Virus record (IMG/VR): IMGVR_UViG_3300028393_000109
Coordinates: 1-44,817 of that record
DNA length: 44,817 bases
DNA from: a virus
Direction: 5' to 3' (one strand)
Shown: positions 673 through 42,933 of the stretch, piece after piece
Layout of the letters: every line of letters begins with the position of its first letter
How positions within the stretch are numbered: the first letter of the stretch is position 1
Notes under the pieces: generated by a model
Told to the model about the DNA's origin: nothing
Database searches by the model: none
What the model saw: only the letters and a program-made list of their open reading frames with translations
Translations under genes and position numbers: made by a program

Positions 673-3600
673 TTAACAGTTACAGCAAACATCTGTTGCA
701 CTTACATCGCTATAACAAAGACTGATTGAACTTGAATTTCTATAATCCCATATTAAGTAAACATAAGGATAACCTAATGGATTTGAATATGTGAAATCTA
801 CATTGTACATACCTGTACTAGGATTTAATACTGGTGTAACTATAGTAGAACTATTTATTATATCATTTATCTGAGCTTCAGTATATAATGTATCTGTTAT
901 TAAATATCTAAATTTATTATCATTAAATACATAAGTATCTCCAGATAATTTACTTGAATACATTCTTAAGTCTGAGCCATCTACTGGGAACGCACCGTTT
1001 GATGACATACCTGTTTGCGAAGTAAATAATGATATACCATCTGACTCCATAACTATATTATCCGTCAATGTAGGAGACGTAAATGAGTTAAGAGTCCAAT
1101 TATATGAGTTGTGAATAGTTTGATTAACGTATGAATGATTATTAATAACTATTCTAGTAACTGTAACCTCAAAATTATCAGGGCAGTTAGAGGTAAATGA
1201 ATAAGTTGCATCCACAGGTGTTATAGTAACATGTGCGATTGAAGGGAATGCATTATCTTTATAAAAATAAACACTACCTGATTCATTTATTCTTGTATCT
1301 ATAACCCTACTTGATCCATAATCAACTGTTAATCCAGCATACCCCTTAGAGAAATCATAATCAAAAACTACATTTCCTATTGTGTTTCCTAAATCTACAT
1401 CAAACTCAACCTTATCGTTAGCGTCTATTTGAGAGAATATTAATCCACAAGGTTGGTCAGTTTGAGTTACTATTACTGGTCTTTCATTACTAGATAAAAC
1501 AAACTCATCCATATATGGATCATAAGCCATAAGTTTTTGAGTTGTAAAAGAGTTTTTAAACAAATCTCTAAACCATACCTTCATGTTTATATCAGATAGA
1601 ACATCTAGTTGATCGTTAGTGTAAGAACTACCTGTTAGCTTAAGAATAGATGATCTCTTAGCATCTGTCCAAACCATCTCTGATCCCCATGTTGCAAAGC
1701 TTTCTGGATTATGACTTATTCCAAAATTCTCAATCCTAGCTATCTGCGTACCTAAAACCTCTGGTATAGATGTAATTGCACCTCCAGCAGCAGCATCAGA
1801 TAATAAGTTCTTGCCTTGTAAAACATAAGATATCTTATCCTCTTGAAGAGTTAAAATATCAGTCGCTCTTGCGTACAATACCTGTATTGGCCCAAACGAC
1901 TTTTGCAAGTCCTTATAGTTAGCTAATCCAAGATTAAACTCGTTTAACTTGTTTATATTGCTCTCAGCATTGTATACTCCACTATAGGTAATAGATGCGT
2001 ATCTAAGTGTTTGCTTATATTCTTGTTGTGAAACTGCATTTACTCTGCTTCCTAAATACATAGGAGCACCTGTCAATGAGTCATCTATCTTATAACTCTC
2101 AACGCCATTTCCAAAAGTAAAACAGTTAAAGAAACCTAAATTACAAACTGCTGGATCTGTTGTGGTTTGGTTGTGTGGTACATTAATACCTCCTTCAGTA
2201 TTCGGGAATGAACTTCCTTGATGTAAACCGTTTATAATTTGGAAATTCTCGCTTCCTTCATAGAACTTTTCTCCATCTGCATCATTCGGCTCTGTCTCAA
2301 AAACTATAATATTATTAGGTTCTTGAATTTCAACTGTAATACTTGATCCCGATGAGTGACCACCAGCAGCAGGCGTTCCAGATCCAAGACCTATATAAAA
2401 CTCACCATTGTCTCCATGAAAGAACTGAATCTGATTAGTCTTATCAATAGAGATTAATTGTAAAGCGGAAGTATAGTTTATATAAGGTATATACGTATCT
2501 ACAGGATTATTAAATATTGTATGCATGTGAAAGGCATCGTCATCAGTTCCATCATATATTCCACTTGTAAGATCTATCTGATCTCCAATAACATACTCGT
2601 GTAAATTATAATAATCGTTTGAAGCTACAAATGTCTTATCATATAAATATATCCTTCCTCCTCCTGTATGGCCAGAACCAGCTCTTTCGCAAAATAAACG
2701 TATCCTTACTCTACTTCCAGCCTTTATAGGTATTGCTTTATATACACCTACTGTTGATGTTTCTGTATATAAGTTACATATACTAACTCTAGGTACCTGG
2801 GAAAATATATTGTTAGGAGCTGTATATAAAAAATCCCCTATTCTTTGAATAAATGTAGCTTGATCATATAGTGCGTAAAAACTAGAGGGTTTAATCTTCA
2901 TATAAGATCCTTCTGGACTTGTACCACTTCCTAAGTCACCATACAACTTATACTTAAGACCTAAAACCTTGGCCTTTACTAAACTTGTTAGAGGTCCGTT
3001 ACTATCTGTCTTAACTATAATTAAATCGTTCTCTTTTACCTTGCTTCTATTATCTCCTTCTAAGTAAAACCAAATAGCTGCGTTTGAAGGATCTGGATAA
3101 TAAAGATTAGTATATATTGTTTGATAATCTGTCTTAGAAGGTTTTATAACCCACTTATATCTAGTAGCCCAATAAGGAGGGTGTGTACCAGCTGGAATAG
3201 AAGCTCTTAAAAAGTTCTTTGTAATAGATTTTGACTCTGGTATAAATAAAGTATTTGTATTACAAACAAGTGCTGTAGTACTTCTATTATATTCATCCAT
3301 ATACACAATACCTACCTCATAATCTCTATTACTATGTAGACTCCTTTTATTTCCAGCCTTATTAAAAGAGGCTAGAGTATAAACATTCTCAAGATACTCA
3401 TAAGCTAGTAATGATGGATCGGATATGTTTCTATATACTACTGCTGGAATTTGTATTTTAATTATATTTGTTCCTGGAGTAACTGGCTCTATTACAAATC
3501 CTTCACCTAAATTATTTACACCGCTACTATATTTTTCCCATCCAGATTTAGCTAACATTGAACAGTTAAAGTAATCCGTAACAGAGAAACCATCATTACA

Positions 3601-5004
3601 ATGAGACATACCTAACGGTGGGTTAGATGTGATAAGTTTTCTAAATTGATCACTTGAAGCTAAATCTGCAACGTTTAGATAATCTTGCTGAAGATTAAAT
3701 AATAATGTATAACTAAAATTATTTAATGGAGCTGAAGCATCTTCATAACCACCACCCTGAAATGATACATGTTGTAGGTTAAAATTTATTAATAATGAGC
3801 TTCCTTGTTTCAATAAAGGATTAGATCCAAAATCTATAGAATATAATGTGTGGTCTATATTTATAGTTGATCCACTTATATTATATGGTGCATTTATTGA
3901 TGTTGTTAATAAGTTCTTATAATCTATATTTTCAGATATTAAATCTAAATTGTATTTTATAGCTATAGGCTTATCATTATCATCATGTATGTTATAACCA
4001 TCAATATAATTTCCATACATTATCCTATTACCCATTGTTGTTTGGGATTTAGCTATATGTGGAACATTATCGTATAGTCTTAATAGTTCACTCTCTGGAA
4101 GAGTTGTATATATTTTTTTATTGTCAAAAAGTATGCTTTGAGTAGAGTTATTACCCCATCCCTGTTCATTTTTTATGTACTTCTCTACTATGTTAACTAT
4201 ATTTCCATCTGAAAATTTAAAACATAAATCAATACCAATAACATTAGAGTCTCCAGTATTAAACGTTACGTTGGCAGCGTTAAATATATTCTCCATTCCA
4301 GAATTATCATATGTAGAATAGTTTAATTTAAACTGCCCTGGCTCAAAAGCAACATCTGTAAACTGAGATAATGCACTATACTCGTTATCCTTATACTTGT
4401 ATCTGTACGCGAATGAAATAAAAACATTCTCTATAAAGTTCTCTCCTCCAGATATACTAACCATCTGAACTTTAGGAGCCTCTAGTGGAGGAGCTACAAT
4501 TACATTAACATCTTCAACAGTTATTATATCAACACCAGATACTGGAGGATAATAAGTTCTAGCTATATTTATCTTTCTTGGAGGGTTTAAATTATCAGTC
4601 CAAAATAAATATTTATCAATAAGATTTATACCAGTTATAAGATAATCACTATTAAAATTTAATACAGTAGTAGATATAACATGGTATAATAAAAGAGATG
4701 TTTCAGTATTATAAGAAACAATCATGTCAACTACTCCAGGATCTGTTACAAACCAAAATATAGTTTCTCTGTCTCCAGATTCATAAGCACCTATACATAA
4801 TGCATTAGTACTTAATAGATTACCTTCATATCTTAGCTGAGCTAAAAGTATATTTCCTTTAGTATTTTCTATTACTCCTACGCTATTATCTTCAGTAGAA
4901 CCTAATCTTATATTCATGGCATCGATATACTCTCCCTCAGGAAGTAATCTTTTGTCATAAGACTTATTCATTCTACCTTTTACAAAACTTACTCTTGAAT
5001 CCAT
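673..5004 (-). CDS. Large tail nozzle / stabilisation protein, crAss-like type
   Basis: A 1443-residue protein. The N-terminus (VKGRMNKSYDKRLLPEGEY, then DAMNIRLGS and VIENTKGN) resembles the large tail stabilisation or muzzle proteins of crAss-like phages, functional relatives of P22 gp10 and T7 gp12. Those form the distal tail tube that gates DNA exit. The body is beta-rich with many aromatic and Ser/Thr/Asn residues, as expected of a beta-propeller tail protein. It follows two connector genes with gaps of 3 bases. The C-terminus ends in a Cys cluster (CCNC). The exact family is inferred from N-terminal pattern, size and position; another large tail hub protein is the main alternative. Confidence 0.75.
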   Translation of the reverse strand: MDSRVSFVKGRMNKSYDKRLLPEGEYIDAMNIRLGSTEDNSVGVIENTKGNILLAQLRYEGNLLSTNALCIGAYESGDRETIFWFVTDPGVVDMIVSYNTETSLLLYHVISTTVLNFNSDYLITGINLIDKYLFWTDNLNPPRKINIARTYYPPVSGVDIITVEDVNVIVAPPLEAPKVQMVSISGGENFIENVFISFAYRYKYKDNEYSALSQFTDVAFEPGQFKLNYSTYDNSGMENIFNAANVTFNTGDSNVIGIDLCFKFSDGNIVNIVEKYIKNEQGWGNNSTQSILFDNKKIYTTLPESELLRLYDNVPHIAKSQTTMGNRIMYGNYIDGYNIHDDNDKPIAIKYNLDLISENIDYKNLLTTSINAPYNISGSTINIDHTLYSIDFGSNPLLKQGSSLLINFNLQHVSFQGGGYEDASAPLNNFSYTLLFNLQQDYLNVADLASSDQFRKLITSNPPLGMSHCNDGFSVTDYFNCSMLAKSGWEKYSSGVNNLGEGFVIEPVTPGTNIIKIQIPAVVYRNISDPSLLAYEYLENVYTLASFNKAGNKRSLHSNRDYEVGIVYMDEYNRSTTALVCNTNTLFIPESKSITKNFLRASIPAGTHPPYWATRYKWVIKPSKTDYQTIYTNLYYPDPSNAAIWFYLEGDNRSKVKENDLIIVKTDSNGPLTSLVKAKVLGLKYKLYGDLGSGTSPEGSYMKIKPSSFYALYDQATFIQRIGDFLYTAPNNIFSQVPRVSICNLYTETSTVGVYKAIPIKAGSRVRIRLFCERAGSGHTGGGRIYLYDKTFVASNDYYNLHEYVIGDQIDLTSGIYDGTDDDAFHMHTIFNNPVDTYIPYINYTSALQLISIDKTNQIQFFHGDNGEFYIGLGSGTPAAGGHSSGSSITVEIQEPNNIIVFETEPNDADGEKFYEGSENFQIINGLHQGSSFPNTEGGINVPHNQTTTDPAVCNLGFFNCFTFGNGVESYKIDDSLTGAPMYLGSRVNAVSQQEYKQTLRYASITYSGVYNAESNINKLNEFNLGLANYKDLQKSFGPIQVLYARATDILTLQEDKISYVLQGKNLLSDAAAGGAITSIPEVLGTQIARIENFGISHNPESFATWGSEMVWTDAKRSSILKLTGSSYTNDQLDVLSDINMKVWFRDLFKNSFTTQKLMAYDPYMDEFVLSSNERPVIVTQTDQPCGLIFSQIDANDKVEFDVDLGNTIGNVVFDYDFSKGYAGLTVDYGSSRVIDTRINESGSVYFYKDNAFPSIAHVTITPVDATYSFTSNCPDNFEVTVTRIVINNHSYVNQTIHNSYNWTLNSFTSPTLTDNIVMESDGISLFTSQTGMSSNGAFPVDGSDLRMYSSKLSGDTYVFNDNKFRYLITDTLYTEAQINDIINSSTIVTPVLNPSTGMYNVDFTYSNPLGYPYVYLIWDYRNSSSISLCYSDVSATDVCCNC

Positions 5005-5007
5005 AAA

Positions 5008-5925
5008 TTACTTAATCATTTTGTCTTTACCTCTCAAGTTCATTAATAATCTTCCTGGATGTAAGTTACTAAGTCTTATTTTCGCGTTTCTTAATAATGC
5101 AGTCTTTTCTTTTTTGGCTCTAGCAACAACATATTCTTGCACTCCAAGCTTATTGTTTAGTATGGCCCATTTAATATAAGAATAAAGAAACTCTTCTGCA
5201 AGTTTGTTTATCTTTACATCTGCATCGTTTCCTCCCTCCATACCATCAGATATGTATTCTAATATACATAACTCTCCAGCCATTGTAGAACTGAAATTAA
5301 TCACTCCTGAGGCCTTATCTATCTTGTAGGTAGGGTTTACATTAGCTGTCTCTGTATTAAGCCCGTATCGCTTTCCTATTGGGTATTGGAAGTACCATAT
5401 ATTATCTAAGTTCCAACCTTCTTTTCCAGCGTATAAACCAGAACCTAAATAAATACTTGTTCCTTGTTTAAATATTCTATCATAGTCCAACATAGACATT
5501 CCTTCCAGAACATTTCCTTCTTGATCGAATAAAACATTACAATCGTTATCTTGAAGATATGAGTTACTGCTAAGTGCTTGAATGTTCTCTGATAATGGTC
5601 TAAGTACACCATCCATGTATAGTGACATTCTTACATAATTAACATAGTCTGGAGGTAGAATGAATTTAAGATCATCACACACACTTATTTCAAGAACTTT
5701 AATTTCTTTTAAAGCATCATAATTAATCTCTTGTATTCCACGCTTTGCATGAAACAATACATTATACTTCTCTACATTATTAATTAACTTATCATTACCA
5801 ACATACATAAGTATGAAGTTATTAACTACATCATTTAATGAAACGTATTGGTAAGAACCCCAGTTCTCATCATTTGGAACTACATCACTATTGTTATAGT
5901 ATTGGTAGCCAGTTAAATATGCCAT
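5008..5925 (-). CDS. Head-tail connector / ring protein
   Basis: A 305-residue protein between another connector candidate and the nozzle gene, 3 bases from each. The middle is beta-rich. The C-terminus is helical and basic (VARAKKEKTALLRNAKIRLS, then LHPGRLLMNLRGKDK), a pattern of crAss-like ring or adaptor proteins that stack under the portal. It has no signal peptide or membrane segment. The role is inferred mainly from position; T7 gp11-like or P22 gp4-like adaptors are the functional analogues. Confidence 0.65.
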   Translation of the reverse strand: MAYLTGYQYYNNSDVVPNDENWGSYQYVSLNDVVNNFILMYVGNDKLINNVEKYNVLFHAKRGIQEINYDALKEIKVLEISVCDDLKFILPPDYVNYVRMSLYMDGVLRPLSENIQALSSNSYLQDNDCNVLFDQEGNVLEGMSMLDYDRIFKQGTSIYLGSGLYAGKEGWNLDNIWYFQYPIGKRYGLNTETANVNPTYKIDKASGVINFSSTMAGELCILEYISDGMEGGNDADVKINKLAEEFLYSYIKWAILNNKLGVQEYVVARAKKEKTALLRNAKIRLSNLHPGRLLMNLRGKDKMIK

Positions 5926-5928
5926 ATC

Positions 5929-6621
5929 TTATCCTTCTAATTGTTGTTCTTTAGCTTCTAATCCAGCACCAAGGTTAACAACCTCAGGCTCTCTAATAGA
6001 CATTCCAGCGTATTCAAGTATTTTATTTACCAATGATGGTTCGTCTTGGTAAGGTAACTCGAAATCTTGATAATCTAAAGCAGACTGATCAAACACTGGC
6101 TCACCAGCTGTAATATTTACATAGGTCCACTTTGGATCCTTAGGAAGTCTTAAATACTGAGATGATACTCCAGTTATAATAGTGGTAGGGTAAACTGTAA
6201 TAGTTTGTCCATTAAGTACGTAAGCTGGGTTGTATATATTTGGAGCTGTTAGATTTGACTGTAAAAGATAAAGAACCTTTTCTCCAGATACCTTACCAAC
6301 CTCTTTGTTATTATATCTAACCGTGTTCAAGTAATAATAATCAGACGGCATTGAGAAGTCAGAGTTAGTTAAATGAGTTAAATTCGCTATAGTAGAGAAC
6401 TTATCTATTATAAGGTCTAATTTCTTAACTATGTCTGCATAACCACTATTAGATGCTCTTGCATTTTGCTTGGTAATCCATAGGTTATATTTGAAAATAT
6501 AATCCTCAAACAAATCAAGTTGTGCTTGTTTGGCATAAAGATTAAAATCCTCAGGTGTAATATACCCGAAGTTATTTTTGTTAGCAACAGCCATTACGGT
6601 GCTTCTCACTGAATTTATCAT
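5929..6621 (-). CDS. Connector / ring protein, first gene of the tail block
   Basis: A 230-residue protein with a helical N-terminus (YITPEDFNLYAKQAQLDLFE) and a beta-rich centre. This matches the small adaptor proteins that bind the portal ring in podoviruses. It is the first gene after the head block and the plus-strand insertion at 6717-6917. A minus-strand -7 box (TATCTTTG, 6637-6644) lies 16 bases upstream of its ATG, so it can start a transcript covering the connectors and nozzle. Function is inferred from size and gene order. Confidence 0.6.
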   Translation of the reverse strand: MINSVRSTVMAVANKNNFGYITPEDFNLYAKQAQLDLFEDYIFKYNLWITKQNARASNSGYADIVKKLDLIIDKFSTIANLTHLTNSDFSMPSDYYYLNTVRYNNKEVGKVSGEKVLYLLQSNLTAPNIYNPAYVLNGQTITVYPTTIITGVSSQYLRLPKDPKWTYVNITAGEPVFDQSALDYQDFELPYQDEPSLVNKILEYAGMSIREPEVVNLGAGLEAKEQQLEG

Positions 6622-6636
6622 CTACAAAACTTTTTA

Positions 6637-6644
6637 CAAAGATA
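6637..6644 (-). promoter_or_regulatory. -7 box for the connector-nozzle block
   Basis: On the minus strand this reads TATCTTTG, a full match to the Bacteroidota -7 element TAnnTTTG, 16 bases before the ATG at 6621. No convincing TTTG -33 element is visible at the usual distance. Confidence 0.5.
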
Positions 6645-6690
6645 ACAAAAAAAAAGCACTCCGATTTACGTGATGTATTGTTTTAAATAT

Positions 6691-6698
6691 TATATTTG
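6691..6698 (+). promoter_or_regulatory. -7 box of the plus-strand moron-like gene
   Basis: TATATTTG, a full match to TAnnTTTG, 18 bases before the ATG at 6717. The -33 region is weak. It gives the lone plus-strand gene its own start. Confidence 0.55.
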
Positions 6699-6716
6699 TC
6701 AAAATAAAATTATATT

Positions 6717-6917
6717 ATGAAAATTGATTTTTATTGGAATGGAAGTTTTGTTGGTGTGGAGTACAGTATTATGATAGATGATGATGAAATTTTTTTAGGT
6801 GAATATGGTTTATCAGAAAACGAAGCAAAATTAAAGTCAATTAATATACTTAAGAATAATTTTAATATTGATTACGAATTAAACGATATATGGTTTAAGT
6901 TTGGAGGAAAACTTTAA
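6717..6917 (+). CDS. Moron-like small acidic protein on the opposite strand
   Basis: A 66-residue protein (MKIDFYWNGSFVGVEYSIMI) with Asp/Glu runs and a compact alpha/beta look; family not recognised. It lies alone on the plus strand inside the late minus-strand operon. It has its own -7 box upstream and a strong hairpin terminator 9 bases after the stop. This promoter-gene-terminator unit is the classic layout of a moron. The function is unknown; no membrane segment is visible. Confidence 0.7.
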   Translation: MKIDFYWNGSFVGVEYSIMIDDDEIFLGEYGLSENEAKLKSINILKNNFNIDYELNDIWFKFGGKL

Positions 6918-7770: not shown

Positions 7771-9186
7771 TTATCCTTTAAATAAGAAGAAGTTATTAGC
7801 ACCTAATGTACATAACGCTCTTTCAGACAAGAAGTGAACCTCCATTGCATCTAAAGAAGATGTTACAGCACCACCAGCAGATCCAGTGATCCATGTTTTG
7901 TAACGTCTGTCTTCAGTTTCAGAAGCACGGTATCTTACGTGTAAGAATGGTCGTTTAGCATTTTTACCTAAAACTTGGTCGTAAACTGTAGTAGATCCAG
8001 CTGGAACTAATACTCCGTTTACAGCACCTCCAACAACACCACCTCTTAAAGCAGCATCGTTTAAGTATTTCCAGTCTGTTTTGTAGAAATCGTAACCTCT
8101 ACGGAAACCTGTAAATCCTAAGTTCAAAGCCATTTGCTCATCGTTATCAAATAAACCATAAGATGTACCACCAGCTCCATAAGAGTTTTGATGAGCCAAC
8201 ATGTCATTGATGTCGTTAGAGAACTGACGGTTCAAGAAGATAGCATTTTCTTCGATAGCTCCTTGTTTGTCTAAACGTTGGATGATAGTATCAAAGTCAC
8301 CTAAAGTGCTTGGGTTACCACCTGACCATACGTTACCTCTTTTGTTTACTACATAGAATAAACCTTCAGTACCTTTAGCATTAGCAATAGCTCCAGATCC
8401 AGCCTCAGCAGGAACTCCTTCAACCATAGCCATCTCTAAGTAATCCTCAAATCTCAAACGAGTTTCGTGCTCAGACTTGATATACCATAAGTAACCAGTT
8501 GCTCTATTTTCAGTAGTAACTTCAACCCATCCGATTTGTGCCATATCTGATCCAGATACTGCATATTTATCTTTGATGATGATTGGAGAGTTTTCGAAGA
8601 TCTCATCAGAAGCCTCTAATGATTCAACCATACCTTCAGTTCCTTTTTTAAATTCAGAACCGTAAACAAATGCAGTAATAGTAGCTCCTGATCCAGCGTT
8701 ACCAAACATTTGACCAGCAGCCTCGTAATAAGATACATGGAAAGTACCAGCAACATAATCAACTTCAGTAATAATACCTTTGTTAGAATTAGCAGCAGTT
8801 TGATTAGATGATAAGAAAACTGTCTGACCTACTCTGAAAGCAATACCAGTTGTAGAGGTAGTGGCAGGATTTAATGTATCATGTACTGTGATAATAGCAG
8901 TACCGTCTCCAACAATAGCGGAAGATGAACAGTTAACATATTTAGTGTGTAAACGTCCTTGTTCTGCCCATTTGATAAGGTCAGAGTTAGACGGCATTTC
9001 AGCTCCAACGATTCTTAAGAAAGAAGCGATAGAACGATTTCCGTAACGTTCAAACTCTTTCTCATAAGTATCTGGAAGATACTGATTCAAGAAGTTGAAG
9101 TTAGTGATGTAATTTGATGCTAAGGTTTTCTTCTCAGCACTTGGTTGTAATTCGAACCCAGGGGTTGATAAAACTGATCCAGCCAT
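7771..9186 (-). CDS. Major capsid protein (predicted, HK97-fold expected)
   Basis: A 471-residue protein right after a scaffold-like gene and portal in a TerL-portal-scaffold-capsid order, which fixes its role better than its sequence does. The length fits the ~470-500 residues of crAss-like capsid proteins. The sequence is rich in Gly, Ala, Ser and Thr and has GNRSIASFLRIVGAEMPSNS near the N-terminus. Base composition is visibly more GC-rich than in neighbours, as expected for a highly translated gene. The leader is an A-rich run (AAAACAAAAACAAAATG), a strong start context in Flavobacteria. A large hairpin follows the stop. Confidence 0.8.
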   Translation of the reverse strand: MAGSVLSTPGFELQPSAEKKTLASNYITNFNFLNQYLPDTYEKEFERYGNRSIASFLRIVGAEMPSNSDLIKWAEQGRLHTKYVNCSSSAIVGDGTAIITVHDTLNPATTSTTGIAFRVGQTVFLSSNQTAANSNKGIITEVDYVAGTFHVSYYEAAGQMFGNAGSGATITAFVYGSEFKKGTEGMVESLEASDEIFENSPIIIKDKYAVSGSDMAQIGWVEVTTENRATGYLWYIKSEHETRLRFEDYLEMAMVEGVPAEAGSGAIANAKGTEGLFYVVNKRGNVWSGGNPSTLGDFDTIIQRLDKQGAIEENAIFLNRQFSNDINDMLAHQNSYGAGGTSYGLFDNDEQMALNLGFTGFRRGYDFYKTDWKYLNDAALRGGVVGGAVNGVLVPAGSTTVYDQVLGKNAKRPFLHVRYRASETEDRRYKTWITGSAGGAVTSSLDAMEVHFLSERALCTLGANNFFLFKG

Positions 9187-10369: not shown

Positions 10370-12805
10370 TTATCGAGGTGAGAACTCAGCCAAATCAAAA
10401 CCATCAAGCGAATCTTCTTCAGATTCAAAATCAACTGGAGGCAAATTATTCTTACGCTGCTCAATCAATTTAGACTGTTGTGTATTCTGAAGCGTTACTC
10501 TTTTATCTTTTGCTTGTTCTTTAAGATTATCCTTCATATCCATGTTCTTAGTATCCACACCTTTAAGCTGCATATTCATTTGGAACTCAACCTCCATAAG
10601 GTGATACTTAAGCTCAGCCTCTTGTTTCATTTTTTCTATGTCAAACTGAGTCTCTGCTTGTTTAACTTGCATCTTAGCTTGTGCCTCTGCTTGTATATTC
10701 TGCATAGCTGTCTGTGCTGCCATCTGTTGAGATTGCATTTGCATCTGACCTTGAGCTTGTTGTTTCTGTTGCTCGTATGCTTGAGTCTCGTCTTGTTTCT
10801 TTTTCTTCTTAAGTTTAAGTAATTGATTAGCTAACTTAAGATTCTTAATCTCTCTAATGTCAATAGCATCTTCTAATCCAATAGAATCTCTCTGAAGTGC
10901 CATTTGAATATTAGCTTCAAGCTGTGCTTTCTCAGCCTCGTCTGGAGACATCTCTATAAATATACCAAAGTCATAGATATATAAATCCTTAATATCATCT
11001 AATATAGATACGTTGTATTTACCTATCTGGTTAGCGAACTGCTCTTTAAAGTCTGAATATTCTAATACGTCAGCTACCCTTAATGATATAGCTTCAGATA
11101 ATGTTCTAGTCAAATATAAACTAGCATCTAGTATATGTCTTGTAGCTGTGTTTGAGTTAGCTGCTGCAAGCTTCTGTACTCCAACCAAACTATTTGGATC
11201 TGGCATGCTACCATCACGAGCCTCATTAAGACCTGTTACGTCTCTAATCATGCTCATATAATGGTTATACGTGCCAACTAAAGCACTTATTTTACCTTGT
11301 CCGTTGTTTGAGTTAAGCTCTGTGATTGGAACCCTTGCATTATTAAATTCTCCGTCTTGAGTATAGGACCTACCTATAACAGATCCAGTCTGGAAGTACA
11401 ATCTAAGTGCGTCCTCTGGATTATATGCTTGACCATTACCCAAATCAACCTCGTTAAGTCCATCAGCATCAATAAACACCCCATCTGGCACCATCTTAGC
11501 AAGTACCTGTTGAAGTTTAAGATGTGTAATCTGAATAAGATCGGCAAATGTTGTCATTCTACGAACTAACGACTCCACCTTTCCTTTATACATTCTAGGT
11601 GCAACTGCTATATAGTTTGGCATAGCGTACTGAGATGCAGACTTAGGTCGTACCATGTTCTTAGACATTTCCCATTTAAGTACATAATTCGTACCCATAA
11701 CCATAACACCTTCGTACCAAACATCAATACGTTTCTCTACCATCTCGAATCTTCCTTCCTCCATCATCTCTTGAGGTGGATTGAAAGTATCTTCCTTAGG
11801 TATCATCTTAACTACTCCGTTATCATTTATTTTTTTCTTATAAACAATCTTCTTAGTAGTCTTGTAATTATAGTATAATAATGTAGCAGAGTCTCTATTG
11901 AATAAACTATTATTATAGTATTGTGAGGCATTATAATAATTATACCATGACTGACTGTGTAGAGAAATTTCTTCAAGTTGATCTATTGTTAAAGAAGGAT
12001 CTATTTTTAAAAGCTCAGTAATAGGGACAGTTTTAATCTCTCCCCAATAAAAACAATCTTTAAAGTATGGATCCTCAGTATAAGAATAAACTATACTAGC
12101 TGGATCAACATAATCAATTTTAATTCCATGCCCTGGTAGAAATTGATGCCTTACAATTCCTACTCCAATAGTAGTAATATCGTAATCAACTCTTTTTCTA
12201 ATATCCATATATTTATTAGAATCCAGAACAGTGTTAATAGCTTCTTCTTCAGCTATCTCTACAGCTGGCTTATAGTTAAGCTGCATATATAGGTTAAGCT
12301 CTTCATCTGTTTCTGGTAAATCATCTGGGTTAGTATTAAAAGCATTAATTCCAAATTGATCTTTAATCTGACTTAGTAATGGTTTAGCAACCATATCAGT
12401 CTCTATCATGTCCTGATATTTATTTCTCTTAGCAGCAGACATAGCGTCTTGTGCGTATGCCTTAACATGAAATAATCTATCAGACATTCCGTTAACTACA
12501 ATATCTACAAACTTAGGTATGATAGGTACTGGAGTCCAGTCTAAATTCAAGTAAGATAAATCACCATCAACAGCAAGTTCATTCTTATACTTTTGTACAG
12601 ACTGTTCACCTCTAGCGTATAATCTTAATCTATGATAATCTGTCCATTGATCATAAAATCTTGAACGTTGCCCATCCTTTCTAAACCACTCATATTGAAT
12701 GCTTTGCCCAATCTTTAGACCAAACTCTTTTGTTTCTTTCTCAGAGTCAGGAACATACTGAGTAGGAAACGGTATGTTTTTAATATCTATATCTACTTTT
12801 ACCAT
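10370..12805 (-). CDS. Portal protein, crAss-like size
   Basis: An 811-residue protein immediately downstream of TerL. Portal rings form the DNA entry vertex of the head and dock the terminase and the tail connectors. The N-terminal and middle parts have the mixed alpha/beta wing and stem look (VPIIPKFVDIVVNGMSDRLF; VRRMTTFADLIQITHLKLQQ). The C-terminal ~170 residues form a long Gln/Lys/Met-rich coiled coil (QQKQQAQGQMQMQSQQMAAQ), like the extended barrels of crAss-like and P22-type portals. It starts one base after the TerL stop. A -7 box inside the TerL 3' end may give it extra transcription. Confidence 0.88.
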   Translation of the reverse strand: MVKVDIDIKNIPFPTQYVPDSEKETKEFGLKIGQSIQYEWFRKDGQRSRFYDQWTDYHRLRLYARGEQSVQKYKNELAVDGDLSYLNLDWTPVPIIPKFVDIVVNGMSDRLFHVKAYAQDAMSAAKRNKYQDMIETDMVAKPLLSQIKDQFGINAFNTNPDDLPETDEELNLYMQLNYKPAVEIAEEEAINTVLDSNKYMDIRKRVDYDITTIGVGIVRHQFLPGHGIKIDYVDPASIVYSYTEDPYFKDCFYWGEIKTVPITELLKIDPSLTIDQLEEISLHSQSWYNYYNASQYYNNSLFNRDSATLLYYNYKTTKKIVYKKKINDNGVVKMIPKEDTFNPPQEMMEEGRFEMVEKRIDVWYEGVMVMGTNYVLKWEMSKNMVRPKSASQYAMPNYIAVAPRMYKGKVESLVRRMTTFADLIQITHLKLQQVLAKMVPDGVFIDADGLNEVDLGNGQAYNPEDALRLYFQTGSVIGRSYTQDGEFNNARVPITELNSNNGQGKISALVGTYNHYMSMIRDVTGLNEARDGSMPDPNSLVGVQKLAAANSNTATRHILDASLYLTRTLSEAISLRVADVLEYSDFKEQFANQIGKYNVSILDDIKDLYIYDFGIFIEMSPDEAEKAQLEANIQMALQRDSIGLEDAIDIREIKNLKLANQLLKLKKKKKQDETQAYEQQKQQAQGQMQMQSQQMAAQTAMQNIQAEAQAKMQVKQAETQFDIEKMKQEAELKYHLMEVEFQMNMQLKGVDTKNMDMKDNLKEQAKDKRVTLQNTQQSKLIEQRKNNLPPVDFESEEDSLDGFDLAEFSPR

Positions 12806-26529: not shown

Positions 26530-26718
26530 GTGTCGTTATGACGAAAAAAAGTCCCATATTCTACTATATATATATTTATTATTTTATATATTTTTTTTTA
26601 TGTAAAAATAGGAAAAAAAACGTCGCAGCGACACTAAACCTTGTTAGCCCCTATCAATCCTCAGAAAAGTCCATGACAAACTTTTTTAAAATCGACACCG
26701 CTGCGACGATAATCGTCG
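26530..26718 (-). promoter_or_regulatory. Control module A, inverted copy of module B
   Basis: Read on the minus strand, the order of parts is: dyad 1 CGACGATTATCGTCG (26704-26718), half-site GTGTCG, TTTGTCAT (26674-26681), dyad 2 GTGTCGCTGCGACG (26621-26634), a TTTTTACATAAAAAA tract, TATATATATAGTAGAATATG, and dyad 3 TCGTCATAACGACAC (26530-26544). The same parts in the same order and spacing make module B on the plus strand. It points leftward to the 43-codon ORF and groEL. The dyads look like operators for one DNA-binding protein. No TAnnTTTG box is present, so the start may use TATAGT or an activator. Confidence 0.75.
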
Positions 26719-27470: not shown

Positions 27471-27680
27471 CTTTAAAATGCGTTTTATAGGTATATAGTA
27501 TATTCGACAACTATAGACACAAACAATGATAGACAAAACCTATCAAGCAATAGATTTATCGCAGAAGCAAAGCCTTATGTTTACTGGCGTTTTGCGTTTA
27601 AGCAACGAACTCGAAGGAGGTGATATATTATATCGTCTTAGAATATAATCGTGGTGGAAATGGCTTTAAAATGCGTTTTA
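27471..27680. repeat. 17-bp direct repeat CTTTAAAATGCGTTTTA
   Basis: The identical 17-mer occurs at 27471-27487 and 27664-27680; a looser version (TAAAAACGCGTTTTAGA) lies at 26719-26735. The core AAAATGCGTTTT is nearly palindromic. The two exact copies flank the 40-codon frame at 27526-27648 and may be regulatory sites. Confidence 0.5.
27526..27648 (+). CDS. Possible 40-residue protein in the control region
   Basis: ATG at 27526 to TAA at 27646-27648 gives MIDKTYQAIDLSQKQSLMFT, then GVLRLSNELEGGDILYRLRI. Composition is normal for a soluble peptide, but no promoter or leader is obvious. It contains AAGGAGGTGAT (27614-27624), a long match to the 16S anti-Shine-Dalgarno region, with no start codon after it. 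Could be chance. Confidence 0.3.
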   Translation: MIDKTYQAIDLSQKQSLMFTGVLRLSNELEGGDILYRLRI

Positions 27681-27859
27681 GGAGTATTCAAGGGCTGTGA
27701 CGGGGGATAACACTCCCCAACATTCTTATAACCTTATAATCTTCCCGAATATTAAACAATCGTTTAACTTCTTTATATATAGGAGTAAGCATATATTATT
27801 ACAAAGTCAATAAGGTAGTAACTGCTAAGTCCAGTGAAATGTTAAAGTTTTGTTAAAAA

Positions 27860-27891
27860 TTTGCACAGGTCAAATAGCCGTCGTATGTTTG
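27860..27891 (+). promoter_or_regulatory. Promoter P1, full Bacteroidota consensus
   Basis: TTTG at 27860-27863, 20 bases, then TATGTTTG at 27884-27891. This matches the TTTG-N19..21-TAnnTTTG consensus exactly. Transcription should start near 27897 and run into the structured RNA. Confidence 0.85.
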
Positions 27892-27897
27892 TACTGT

Positions 27898-28068
27898 CAA
27901 AATGAGACAACGTTCTTTGAAATACTAGTTGTAGAATAAATCAAACAGGTTAGGTTTGGAAACATTAAAGAAACCCACTCGGAAACGGATAAGGTCACAT
28001 AAAGGAAGAGGGCGTTAATGATAACAATAACTTATGGAAGATTAAAATTGACAACTAGTATTTTCTTT
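27898..28068 (+). ncRNA. Structured RNA closed by a 13-bp helix
   Basis: Right after P1, AAATACTAGTTGT (27920-27932) pairs perfectly with ACAACTAGTATTT (28051-28063), enclosing about 118 bases. Inside are GGTTT/AAACC (27953 on), a possible CTC/GAG helix, and GTTA/TAAC hairpins, so a multi-branch fold is likely. The 3' arm runs into TTTCTTT. No start codon has a frame worth calling. It ends where the upstream repeat of P2 begins, which fits a discrete RNA of ~170 nt. No match to a known RNA family is claimed. Confidence 0.65.
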
Positions 28069-28094
28069 AGCAAATGTTAAAGTTTTGTTAAAGT

Positions 28095-28126
28095 TTTGGT
28101 AGATTGAAAAAAGCAACATACATTTG
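28095..28126 (+). promoter_or_regulatory. Promoter P2, full Bacteroidota consensus
   Basis: TTTG at 28095-28098, 20 bases, then TACATTTG at 28119-28126. Expected start near 28132. The transcript carries the hairpin at 28205-28247, the hammerhead ribozyme, and the genes from 28311 on. Confidence 0.85.
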
Positions 28127-28204
28127 CTTCATCAAAATACATAGTCAGGCAGACGTGTTTAAAAACATTAGTTTGCGGGTTTCAGGTCGGAAGGCTTGGC
28201 TCAG

Positions 28205-28247
28205 GTTAACAGAACGATTGTGACGTGCTTACAATTCTTTTGTTAAC
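28205..28247 (+). ncRNA. Long hairpin directly upstream of the hammerhead
   Basis: GTTAACAGAA (28205-28214) pairs with TTCTTTTGTTAAC (ending at 28247, small bulge). The inner GATTGT pairs with ACAATT around the loop GACGTGCTT. It ends 3 bases before the first hammerhead helix and could stabilise the 5' cleavage product or stack on the ribozyme. Confidence 0.6.
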
Positions 28248-28250
28248 GAC

Positions 28251-28303
28251 AGTGTCCATGAGTGTGTTACTCATGCTGATGAGTCGCAGAACGACGAAAC
28301 ACT
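28251..28303 (+). ncRNA. Type III hammerhead ribozyme
   Basis: All core parts are present in order. Stem III 5' strand AGUGU (28251-28255) is followed by cleavage-site C17 (28256). Stem I is CAUGAGU/ACUCAUG (28257-28263 and 28269-28275) with loop GUGUU. Core CUGAUGA is at 28276-28282. Stem II is GUCG/CGAC (28283-28286 and 28292-28295) with loop CAGAA. Core GAAA is at 28296-28299, then CACU (28300-28303) closes stem III with the A15.1-U16.1 pair. The site is GUC, cut between 28256 and 28257. Stem III is open, so type III. Cleavage would split the P2 transcript into a ~125-nt leader and an mRNA with a 5'-OH end 54 bases before the next ATG. Confidence 0.92.
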
Positions 28304-28310
28304 TTATATC

Positions 28311-28421
28311 ATGAAACGAAACGAAATTCAAGGTGGCTGTATATTGGCCACCTTCCTGCTTATAGCAGTAATAGTACTAAGCCAATTATTAACTCTTATA
28401 GATTATATCTTTGGAAATTAG
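28311..28421 (+). CDS. 36-residue membrane protein behind the hammerhead
   Basis: MKRNEIQGGCILATFLLIAV, then IVLSQLLTLIDYIFGN. One membrane segment with a positively charged N-terminus. The ATG is 7 bases after the ribozyme. Codons 7-15 form an 8-bp hairpin (AAGGTGGC/GCCACCTT, 28330-28354), unusual for coding sequence and possibly controlling translation or RNA decay. Function unknown. Confidence 0.55.
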   Translation: MKRNEIQGGCILATFLLIAVIVLSQLLTLIDYIFGN

Positions 28422-28461
28422 AACCTACACACAGACAAGTTACACAAGAGTAACACGTACC

Positions 28462-28566
28462 ATGTACACGGCAAAGGTGCAGGGCACCACCTACCATGCG
28501 GATAGCATAGAGAGACTAAACGATTACATTACTAACCATGTCGAACCGACACAAAACACATTTTAA
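28462..28566 (+). CDS. 34-residue small protein
   Basis: MYTAKVQGTTYHADSIERLN, then DYITNHVEPTQNTF. A beta-alpha mini-protein; the ADSIERLNDYI part resembles short phage proteins seen next to similar early genes. Its stop is 2 bases before the next ATG, so coupling is likely. Confidence 0.5.
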   Translation: MYTAKVQGTTYHADSIERLNDYITNHVEPTQNTF

Positions 28567-28568
28567 TT

Positions 28569-28904
28569 ATGAGAACACTAACAATCAACATCGGGTTAAA
28601 TAATAACCCATACACGGCAGAGCAGGTAATAGATAGAATGGCGAGTGATTCAAGCTATCGTTTGATGGCTTATCAAATAGTCAGTTCAGAGTACGAAGGT
28701 CATCCTGAGGAAACGTTTGTAGGTTTGTTTGAGTACAAGTATAACAGAGACTCAAAGATACTATCCGACTTTGAAAATCTTGCCTCAGTAATGACTCAGG
28801 AGTGCATTGCAGTAAGTACTGAGTCAATGGACGTGCTTGCATATAACCAAAGCCACAAGGGTACGCGAAACAAATTTAATAACCAATACTTTAAAACAAT
28901 ATGA
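28569..28904 (+). CDS. Conserved-type early protein, function unknown
   Basis: A 111-residue protein (MRTLTINIGLNNNPYTAEQV) with alternating strands and helices; SMDVLAYNQSHKG near the C-terminus. Similar proteins occur at the head of early operons in Bacteroidota phages; no function is known to me. The leader CGACACAAAACA, then TTTTAATTATG, nearly repeats the leader of the gene at 29345. It overlaps the next gene by ATGA. Confidence 0.7.
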   Translation: MRTLTINIGLNNNPYTAEQVIDRMASDSSYRLMAYQIVSSEYEGHPEETFVGLFEYKYNRDSKILSDFENLASVMTQECIAVSTESMDVLAYNQSHKGTRNKFNNQYFKTI

Positions 28905-29140
28905 GACCATTAACACAAAAAAGTTTCTACGGCAAAGCTAGTATAGAGACAGAGAATAATATATCTTTATTAAAAAGCTATGATACTATAGTGGCGAAAT
29001 ACGACCATTTGAATAACAAAATGGAAGTTTTTGGTTTGTATTCGAATACAACTATGAGACACATAAATTCATTTCTTAATCATTTTGGTTTTGATACTTG
29101 TAGTAAGAAAGAACTAGAAGAGTACTATTTAAGCATTTAG
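28901..29140 (+). CDS. DUF8033-like small protein
   Basis: A 79-residue protein. LLKSYDTIVAKYDH, then FGLYSNTTMRHINSFLNHFG and SKKELEEYY, fit the DUF8033 pattern (IVA.Y, YS.TT.RHINEFL) of small phage and plasmid proteins with no known role. The stop adjoins module B directly. The family assignment is from memory of the motif. Confidence 0.7.
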   Translation: MRPLTQKSFYGKASIETENNISLLKSYDTIVAKYDHLNNKMEVFGLYSNTTMRHINSFLNHFGFDTCSKKELEEYYLSI

Positions 29141-29330
29141 TGTCGATAATCGTCGTAGCCGTGTCGTTTTTTAAAAAGTTTGTCATAGTTTAAACCTTTA
29201 GGTTTCAACTAGTTAAACAGATTAGTGTCGTTACGACGATTTTTCTTCTACTTTTACGTAAAAAAAAATAATAATAAATAAAGAATATATATATAATAGA
29301 ATATGACACAAAAAAACGTCATGTCGACAC
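29140..29330 (+). promoter_or_regulatory. Control module B, inverted copy of module A
   Basis: Parts on the plus strand: dyad 1 TGTCGATAATCGTCG (29141-29155), half-site GTGTCG (29161-29166), TTTGTCAT (29179-29186), AAACCTTTAGGTTT, dyad 2 GTGTCGTTACGACGA (29225-29239), a CTTTTACGTAAAAAA tract, TATATATATAATAGAATATG, and dyad 3 ACGTCATGTCGACAC (29316-29330). Length and order equal module A. It points to the rightward early operon at 29345. TATAAT is present but no TAnnTTTG, so transcription may need a phage factor or be repressed at the dyads. Confidence 0.75.
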
Positions 29331-31934: not shown

Positions 31935-32123
31935 ATGAAAATAATAGTAAAAAGAAACGAGCAACAACCAGAAATTACAATTGATTTAAAAGACGTTATT
32001 TTTTCTTATGCAATTAGAAATTCTTTTATATTAGCATTAGAAATTGAAGGATTTACACAAGATTCAATATCAGAAATTTTTAATACAAATTTTGATAAAA
32101 TTGAATGTAAAGAAACAAATTAA
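31935..32123 (+). CDS. 62-residue protein of unknown function
   Basis: Starts at Met 31935 (MKIIVKRNEQQPEITIDLKD), 4 bases after the previous stop. The longer upstream frame would overlap the preceding gene by 71 bases and is rejected. One strand pair, then a helix SYAIRNSFILALEIEGF. Not recognised. Confidence 0.6.
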   Translation: MKIIVKRNEQQPEITIDLKDVIFSYAIRNSFILALEIEGFTQDSISEIFNTNFDKIECKETN

Positions 32124-32134
32124 AAAGAAATAAG

Positions 32135-32335
32135 ATGAACATAGCAAATGAAATACTATGGGATATGTTTCAAAGGAGTAATTGTACACAAACAGAGTTT
32201 TGTATAAGACTTGGCTATAGAACACACACTCCTAATATGTCTCAATGGCTCTCAGGAAATACAGACTTATCTTTGAACTTATTAAAGAAGTTCTGTGATA
32301 CATTAAACTTTACATTAAAAATAGAATTGTTATGA
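32135..32335 (+). CDS. Small XRE/Cro-like helix-turn-helix protein, copy 1
   Basis: A 66-residue protein. QRSNCTQTEFCIRLGY, then NMSQWLSGNTDLSLNLLKKF, reads as the four-helix HTH of Cro/CI-type proteins, with the recognition helix near PNMSQWLSG. A near-identical copy lies at 42237-42437. It ends FTLKIELL and overlaps the next gene by ATGA. It likely binds DNA as a dimer; candidate partner for the dyads in modules A and B. Confidence 0.75.
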   Translation: MNIANEILWDMFQRSNCTQTEFCIRLGYRTHTPNMSQWLSGNTDLSLNLLKKFCDTLNFTLKIELL

Positions 32336-32586
32336 CATTAAAAGAAAAGTTTTTACCATTTGTAGATTGGATGGACTTACAAGATGATTGTACTGATAGA
32401 AATTGGGCATTAAGAAATGCTAATGCATGTGAACAAATAGCAGATGAATTTGCTATTGAATTTACAGAGTGGAAAGATAAATTTATAAGTGAGGTAGGTG
32501 ATTGGAAGCAAGATGGTGTTTATTTAAAAAATAGCTATACTACAAAAGAACTATTAGAACTTTATAAAAAAGAGAAAGGATTATGA
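32332..32586 (+). CDS. Partner of XRE copy 1, EIADEFAI-type protein
   Basis: An 84-residue helical protein (MTLKEKFLPFVDWMDLQDDC). ACEQIADEFAIEFTEW and LLELYKKEKGL are shared with the 84-residue protein at 42434 and partly with the 63-residue one at 41281. It always follows the XRE gene with an ATGA overlap, so the two act as a unit. Function unknown. Confidence 0.7.
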   Translation: MTLKEKFLPFVDWMDLQDDCTDRNWALRNANACEQIADEFAIEFTEWKDKFISEVGDWKQDGVYLKNSYTTKELLELYKKEKGL

Positions 32587-32822
32587 AATATAGAATTGTT
32601 ATTAAAACAGAAGTGAGTGGTAAAAAATGTTACTATGTTCAAAAGAAATTTTTATTCTTTTTTTGGATATATCTTGCTGAAATAAGAGATATGTCAATGA
32701 GTTTACATAATGTTGGTTTTTCTACTTTAAATGAAGCTGAAGAATATATGCAATATCATATAGATGATGACAACAAAGAGCAACAAAGTAAAATTATAAA
32801 ACGAGAAATATATAAAAAATAA
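32583..32822 (+). CDS. 79-residue protein of unknown function
   Basis: MKYRIVIKTEVSGKKCYYVQ, then KKFLFFFWIYLAEI and a charged helix EEYMQYHIDDDNKEQQSKII. The pattern (strand, YYVQKK, aromatic strand, helix EAEEYM) occurs in small Flavobacterium-type phage proteins. Coupled by ATGA to the gene before. Confidence 0.65.
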   Translation: MKYRIVIKTEVSGKKCYYVQKKFLFFFWIYLAEIRDMSMSLHNVGFSTLNEAEEYMQYHIDDDNKEQQSKIIKREIYKK

Positions 32823-41979: not shown

Positions 41980-42240
41980 ATGATAATAGTAGACGAAATT
42001 TACGAGTATGATTATGATGTACAAGATGGCGTACACACACTAAGGTATTCCAACAATGGTGGATGGACCAACCCTAAAGGAATTGCTATGAAGGTGGTTG
42101 ATGATGGTAATGGATTAGTAATTAAGTTTAATGAGAAGGGCAGGATTGACTATGGTGAGGCAGAGCAGTTACTTATTCTGCTTAAAATGATTAACAAGGA
42201 TACAAAGTACGAGGTGGTAACTAAAAAGGAGATGTTATGA
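41980..42240 (+). CDS. 86-residue beta-rich protein
   Basis: MIIVDEIYEYDYDVQDGVHT, then NNGGWTNPKGIAMKVVDDGN and FNEKGRIDYGEAEQLLILLK. Resembles small immune- or regulator-like beta proteins but no family is clear. It precedes XRE copy 2 with an ATGA overlap. Confidence 0.6.
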   Translation: MIIVDEIYEYDYDVQDGVHTLRYSNNGGWTNPKGIAMKVVDDGNGLVIKFNEKGRIDYGEAEQLLILLKMINKDTKYEVVTKKEML

Positions 42241-42437
42241 ACATAGCAAATGAAATACTATGGGATATATTTCAAAGGAGTAATTGTACACAAAAAGAGT
42301 TTTTTATAAGACTTGGTTATAATGGACACACACCTAATATGTCTCAATGGCTAAAGGGAAATATGGACTTATCACTAGATAAGCTTAAAGAGATATGTGA
42401 TAAACTAAACTTTACATTAAAAATAGAATTGTTATGA
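42237..42437 (+). CDS. Small XRE/Cro-like helix-turn-helix protein, copy 2
   Basis: A 66-residue protein, mostly identical to the one at 32135-32335 and the same length. Changes cluster around the recognition segment: LGYRTHTPNMSQWLSGNTDL becomes LGYNGHTPNMSQWLKGNMDL, so its DNA site may differ. It overlaps both neighbours by ATGA. It may act with copy 1 on the paired control modules or on its own operon. Confidence 0.75.
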   Translation: MNIANEILWDIFQRSNCTQKEFFIRLGYNGHTPNMSQWLKGNMDLSLDKLKEICDKLNFTLKIELL

Positions 42438-42688
42438 AATTAAAAGAAAAGTTTGCTGAAACAATTTTAGTACCACTTTCAATTCTAGGATTTTATATTG
42501 ACTGGGATAAAGTAGAAAAATGTGAAGAAATAGCAGATGAATTTGCTATTGGGTTTGCCGATTGGTTAGAAACATTACCACCAAGTAGAAAAGTATCCAT
42601 GTGGTCCAAAAATGGTGAACTTAAAGGTTTATTCACAATGGATAATGAACAATTATTAGAAATCTATAAAAAAGAGAAAGGATTATGA
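42434..42688 (+). CDS. Partner of XRE copy 2, EIADEFAI-type protein
   Basis: An 84-residue helical protein (MKLKEKFAETILVPLSILGF). It keeps CEEIADEFAIGFADWL and LLEIYKKEKGL of the copy at 32332-32586, while the middle has diverged strongly. Length is exactly conserved. Function unknown. Confidence 0.7.
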   Translation: MKLKEKFAETILVPLSILGFYIDWDKVEKCEEIADEFAIGFADWLETLPPSRKVSMWSKNGELKGLFTMDNEQLLEIYKKEKGL

Positions 42689-42933
42689 AAGCAAAACTAA
42701 TATTTGATACAACAGACTCTGACGATAGGCAAGAGTTTTTGAGATGCACTAAATCACTCGATATGGCATTAGCAATATGGGACATATTAAAATTAAGAAA
42801 AAAACTTGATGATAGGTTTGAGATGATTACAGATGATACATTAAATGTTTTTGATGGAATAGAATCATTCGCTGAAGGTATATCTGATATACTTGAAGAC
42901 TACAATATTAATATAGATGAGTTAGTATCATGA
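42685..42933 (+). CDS. 82-residue acidic protein
   Basis: MKAKLIFDTTDSDDRQEFLR, then CTKSLDMALAIWDILKLRKK and an acidic C-terminus. The DxDDR.E.LRC.KSLDMALA.W pattern recurs in Bacteroidota phages with no function known. Coupled by ATGA on both sides. Confidence 0.7.
   Translation: MKAKLIFDTTDSDDRQEFLRCTKSLDMALAIWDILKLRKKLDDRFEMITDDTLNVFDGIESFAEGISDILEDYNINIDELVS

Follow-up and report, generated by a model that had tools for sequence, protein, structure and literature searches.

A type III hammerhead ribozyme motif behind a conserved leader RNA at the head of the early genes of an Elemovirus-like phage

The window analysed here is a stretch of 44,817 nucleotides that makes up the whole of the IMG/VR virus record IMGVR_UViG_3300028393_000109; contig 3300010158_000078 is the same virus (99.99-100%). 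The window proteins include GroEL and structural proteins, and the primase is 62% identical to that of an uncultured podovirus and 43% identical, over 35% of its length, to those of Flavobacterium Elemovirus phages. The virus is therefore regarded as an Elemovirus-like podovirus of Bacteroidota. A prophage or host genome was considered and rejected, given that the sequence is a virus record and that the leader seed described below has no match in GTDB genomes. No nucleotide relatives of the region 27500-29200 were found among deposited phages. The window also contains two internal duplication pairs, 32118-32588 / 42219-42690 and the inverted pair 26555-26715 / 29144-29305, with 74-77% identity across both.

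Between the left-going structural genes and the right-going early genes lies a control region, in which a hammerhead motif heads the right-going early operon. The pattern scan found two tandem promoters of the Bacteroidota type here, both on the plus strand. Promoter 1 (TTTG-N20-TATGTTTG, 27860-27891) is absent from the preliminary description of this DNA. Promoter 2, for which that description had claimed a full consensus at 28095-28126, is indeed a full match (TTTG at 28095-28098, 20 nt, TACATTTG at 28119-28126), and transcription is inferred to start near 28132. A repeat search showed that each promoter is preceded by a copy of the 27-bp plus-strand repeat AAATGTTAAAGTTTTGTTAAA, located at 27837-27863 and 28072-28098 (93% identity). 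The first early gene is an ORF (28311-28421, plus strand) for a 36-aa peptide with a single membrane span, MKRNEIQGG...IFGN, which has no Pfam match. The next larger early gene (28569-28904, plus strand) belongs to phrog_11722, is of unknown function and is conserved in relatives.

Inspection of the sequence between promoter 2 and the first early gene reveals a complete type III hammerhead ribozyme at 28251-28303 on the plus strand. Stem III is formed by AGUGU (28251-28255) and ACACU (28299-28303), 5 bp; stem I by CAUGAGU (28257-28263) and ACUCAUG (28269-28275), 7 bp with the loop GUGUU; and stem II by GUCG (28283-28286) and CGAC (28292-28295), 4 bp with the loop CAGAA. The core consists of H17 (C28256), CUGAUGA (28276-28282) and GAA (28296-28298). 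In other words, three helices surround CUGANGA...GAA with U16.1, H17 and A15.1 in place, as required of a hammerhead, and stem III is open-ended while stems I and II are capped by hairpin loops, as required of type III. The preliminary description was thus correct in reporting every core base and all three helices, in the type III assignment and the sense orientation, and in the gap of 7 nt between the motif and the ATG at 28311. From established hammerhead chemistry the cleavage site is predicted 3' of C17, i.e. at 28256/28257 on the plus strand, a position inferred by aligning the core bases. We note that the identity of 28251-28303 as a hammerhead ribozyme is close to certain; cleavage and function are inferred.

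The frequency of such motifs was estimated with a hammerhead descriptor, which finds 28251-28303 as the single site in the window. In 20 Mb of first-order Markov sequence simulated with the dinucleotides of the window, a single looser site turned up and none that was equally strict, i.e. with at least five pairs in stem III, seven in stem I and four in stem II; the chance expectation for the motif is near zero. An Rfam scan of the window at gathering thresholds gave no match. The preliminary description had proposed a search with the Rfam type III model, and a permissive scan does place RF00008 (Hammerhead_3) over the site with 27.6 bits (E 5.9e-4), but with the stem III register shifted and below the gathering cut-off of 48.5. 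This cut-off is the bar that curators set for automatic listing and not a structural criterion. The motif shares with RF00008 the helix order, all core nucleotides, the GUC cleavage triplet and the hairpin loops on stems I and II; it differs in its sub-gathering score and in loops and stem lengths that depart from the Rfam consensus. The Elemovirus homologue aligns to RF00008 in register and scores 36.3 bits (E 1.7e-6), also less than 48.5. Since Rfam at the gathering threshold reported none of the hammerheads of seven related loci, hammerheads are probably under-counted in phage genomes.

Three independent routes were used to gather relatives (loci with L numbers), namely a hammerhead DNA pattern, the primase and the leader sequence, and each of the resulting sets contains type III hammerheads where the early region starts. 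In the alignment of 21 related type III hammerheads (A4) the core is kept and 96.7% of the pair cells (17 pairs) are standard pairs, as compared to 71% in shuffles and 28-44% when one partner is slid. Double, i.e. compensatory, changes are found in 13 of the 17 pairs, and amount to 95 cells versus 31 in shuffles and 2 to 15 with the partner slid. The preliminary description had held that relatives lacking conserved core bases or stem pairs would refute the motif; this check was run and was passed. The comparative data show strong selection on the core and the stems. The core was not used in scanning the primase and leader collections, yet the descriptor demands it, and therefore the strongest independent evidence is the pairing together with the fixed position. 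The IMG/VR pattern matches (n=98) mostly fold as type I with stem I open (84 sites); these served for position statistics only and were otherwise not counted as support for the type III family. In the cultured Flavobacterium Elemovirus phages a hammerhead lies on the early strand (L192, 28913-28967) and is separated by 14 nt from the first early gene downstream; this copy is identical in 68 records and unannotated.

The U-G of loop I and the A residues of loop II are conserved in A4; the contact between the two loops was itself not modelled. In the full transcript the hammerhead can fold together with all three of the leader hairpins described below. Constraining the transcript to the hammerhead fold costs 1.3 kcal/mol relative to the minimum, and the mean stem III probability is 0.37, both without tertiary contacts. 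A strong thermodynamic preference for the ribozyme is thus not evident.

The segment between the inferred start and the predicted cut (28133-28256, plus strand) was identified as a leader RNA, family A, by folding, covariation and covariance-model matches, its 3' end being set by the predicted hammerhead cleavage site. The length of about 125 nt given in the preliminary description is arithmetically correct for a start at the site inferred from the promoter. Folded alone, the leader has z = -4.3, and window 28141-28326 aligns with L104 at 73%. A 20-base exact pattern taken from this aligned segment yielded eight further contigs; because of this seed, part of the invariance of hairpin 1 follows from the way the members were collected. 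The nine leaders align without gaps and fold as three hairpins, for which RNAalifold predicts 37 pairs; none of these is broken, and double changes occur in 17. For the full 41-pair structure (alignment A2) 97.0% of the cells are paired, as compared to 82.5% when shuffled and 41-46% when slid; 18 of the 41 pairs show double changes, and no shuffle matches the covariation score. All three hairpins lie on the plus strand: hairpin 1 (28149-28176) has 11 bp with a 2-nt bulge, 3 double-change pairs and 100% of its cells paired, hairpin 2 (28177-28202) has a GNRA tetraloop and 5 double-change pairs, and hairpin 3 (28205-28247) has 18 bp with one mismatch and 10 double-change pairs. Upstream, the TATGTTTG motif directly precedes the leader in L183 and L185, and 5 of 8 relatives have a TAnnTTTG promoter 12 to 44 nt ahead of the leader; transcription therefore probably begins with the leader.

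The covariance model of leader A (R1) also finds L197, as well as L021, L054 and L060, loci that had been picked solely by the hammerhead pattern. The latter three show hairpins 1 and 2 clearly and lack hairpin 3; the leader of L091 resembles them by eye. A match upstream of the L008 hammerhead was looked for and rejected. The window leader has no Rfam match at gathering thresholds or up to E = 10 (4227 models), and the homologues in L183-L190 and L197 have no credible one. Judged by its covariation, the stretch from the promoter to the predicted cut is a conserved leader RNA of three hairpins, and it is absent from Rfam. The cultured elemo phages, L107 and L162 have a different conserved leader (B), behind which a type III hammerhead likewise stands; the possibility that leader B is a variant of leader A was rejected, as R1 does not detect it in elemo.

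Leader A is followed by a type III hammerhead in ten cases: the window, L183, L185/L104, L186, L187, L188, L021, L054, L060 and L091. L183, L185/L104, L186, L187 and L188 were picked solely by the leader pattern, yet the hammerhead follows the leader; in L021, L054 and L060 the leader match is directly upstream of the ribozyme. In three others (L189, L190, L197) the hammerhead is replaced by a tRNA-like element, that is, a 7-bp acceptor-like stem stacked directly on a T-arm-like hairpin. This element lies about 70 nt further on from the leader in L197, and in L190 an intrinsic terminator stands directly behind the leader, ahead of the element. ARAGORN called none of the tRNA-like elements a tRNA. 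An acceptor stem with a T-arm is a minimal RNase P substrate, and because of this the tRNA-like elements are inferred to cut the transcript too. Most modules behind the leader precede a similar (AC)UAAC...AUG segment.

Two further structures at such positions deserve mention. In L184 a three-way junction (2575-2614, GCCGTT/AACGGC) takes the place of the hammerhead behind leader A; its identity is unresolved and it has no Rfam match. A similar junction, GCCCTAG/CTAGGGC followed by ACTAAC, is found at 779-824 of L105, at the early-operon head of a close relative without a hammerhead. A generic search for P1-hairpin-CTAAC modules was abandoned because it showed no excess (145 versus 173 in the Markov control), and therefore only a stricter version with a T-arm is reported, which gave 65 matches, mostly ordinary tRNAs, versus 5.6 in the control. 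Short tRNA-like elements (7-bp acceptor-like stem and T-arm with 10-36 nt between) were seen 17-41 nt before start codons in L037 (1884-1943), L059 (minus strand, 12070-12130), L132 (2068-2133), L142 (2522-2585), L150 (2080-2120), L189 (2610-2659), L190 (minus strand, 2355-2395) and L197 (6200-6248). They are usually followed by CTAAC, and some share a phage with hammerheads. L189 also contains a tRNA with a doubtful anticodon (8288-8396) followed directly by a DUF805b RNA motif (33.2 bits).

A hammerhead placed between a folded leader and the first early gene, in combination with a different processing-type element at that place in relatives, points to the release of a small RNA and the formation of mRNA 5' ends. 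We consider it fairly probable that self-cleavage by the hammerhead separates a functional leader RNA from the early mRNA, where both cleavage and the separate life of the leader are inferred. The early promoter of the phage would give a transcript beginning with the structured leader of about 125 nt, and the type III hammerhead directly behind it would fold and cut after C28256. The cut would free the leader as a small RNA of its own, terminated by a stable hairpin and a 2',3'-cyclic phosphate; the early mRNA would be left with a 5'-OH end and begin with the stem I and II hairpins of the ribozyme, its start codon 54 nt from the cut. The likeliest candidates for the role of the free leader are a regulatory small RNA and an antitermination-type element. 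The preliminary description had offered two roles for self-cleavage, a change in mRNA stability and the freeing of a functional RNA. The second has now gained comparative support, the leader being a conserved, covarying RNA, but catalysis remains inferred, as does any effect on mRNA stability or translation. Whether the leaders form an undescribed family of early RNAs whose 3' ends are generated by cutting modules that can replace one another (the type III hammerhead, the tRNA-like element and possibly a further ribozyme with a three-way junction), with such modules also punctuating early operons into short self-processed mRNAs, is in our judgement evenly balanced.

Hammerheads are not restricted to the operon head. 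In the primase-selected loci 32 of 33 are in sense, with up to four per phage and types I and III mixed. Over all loci, 18 of 26 type III and 58 of 97 type I sites end at most 40 nt from the next ATG ORF, as compared to 12.8% of random positions, and only 3 of 123 hammerheads lie inside an ORF of at least 100 codons; these statistics are based on simple ORF calls. In four type I hammerheads (L104 870-921, L162 593-642 and 905-955, L177 979-1032) stem I contains the stop codon of the upstream gene, as GGUUAA or GAUUAA followed by CUGAYGA, and cleavage would therefore fall exactly between two genes. L019 has an array of eight type I hammerheads within 5.6 kb (1336-6896), most about 35 nt or less from a start codon. 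In L011, L129, L145, L150, L154 and L156 a strong hairpin upstream of the type III hammerhead abuts the 5' strand of stem III, and would shield the upstream RNA at its 3' end once cleavage has occurred. L107 encodes a tmRNA (8283-8645, tag DNAQIEANMNKVFSLLREEVGVAA) that adjoins a tRNA.

Hammerheads of every type lie immediately ahead of start codons in many phages, including at gene junctions that involve no leader RNA, which suggests another explanation, namely that it is the mRNA side that matters: with its 5'-OH end covered by the hairpins of stems I and II, the mRNA would resist 5'-end-dependent decay, and the strand before the start codon would be freed, the leader being discarded or merely a folding aid. 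By its sequence the body of a type III ribozyme would stay on the mRNA, and the two types are exchanged in front of the same small gene MKQFIKRNEGEIYFTITV..., which is preceded by type I in L104 and by type III in L107. We regard this explanation as rather unlikely but worth keeping in mind; it leaves unexplained both the conservation of the leader with its 18 compensating pairs and the terminator behind the leader in L190.

It is less likely still that the leader is a sensing or antitermination element with the ribozyme as its output, where AGUGU would pair either with the 5' end of the leader (P0) or with ACACU of stem III, so that the state of the leader would control cleavage. Fold predictions for L183 and L187 have the former stem III strand base-paired after cleavage with the conserved 5' end of the leader (GCAGUA with UACUGU or UAUUGU), and a pairing of ACAU with GUGU is predicted in the window, but the P0 geometry varies between phages and GCAGUA is kept in L184 and L189, where the hammerhead is absent. 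According to the fold predictions, re-pairing of the stem III strand in L183 and L187 could drive release of the leader; the geometry is insufficiently conserved to claim this. Finally, an inactive relic or chance match is hardly tenable: the score is below the Rfam gathering threshold and competing folds exist, the minimum being 1.3 kcal/mol better than the ribozyme fold, but the covariation across 21 relatives, the near-zero chance expectation and the conserved position speak against it.

Early leader RNAs with an antitermination function are known, such as put of phage HK022, which is likewise a structured RNA directly behind an early phage promoter; to our knowledge no hammerhead is associated with put. 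The role of hammerheads in bacteria and phages was called an open question in a 2017 review (PMC6155905). Perreault et al. 2011 (PMC3088659) describe hammerheads near phage genes, often clustered, including one 13 nt before a helicase start in HF1/HF2, and propose the cutting of long phage transcripts into mRNAs the length of an operon or a gene. Phage hammerheads and polycistronic processing, as a proposal, were thus known before; the contexts given are other phages or prophages (A. tumefaciens, Azorhizobium, C. scindens, haloviruses) and, unlike in the window, the parts consulted mention no conserved, structured leader RNA ahead of the ribozyme. The open-access literature searched gave no account of the leader RNA, of the Elemovirus hammerheads or of tRNA-like elements in the place of the hammerhead. 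Both the leader RNA and the set of cutting modules that can be exchanged behind it appear to be new. The proposed role of the hammerhead can be tested in cultured phages, namely Elemovirus on Flavobacterium sp. BAL314, of which 68 sequenced records carry the unannotated element.
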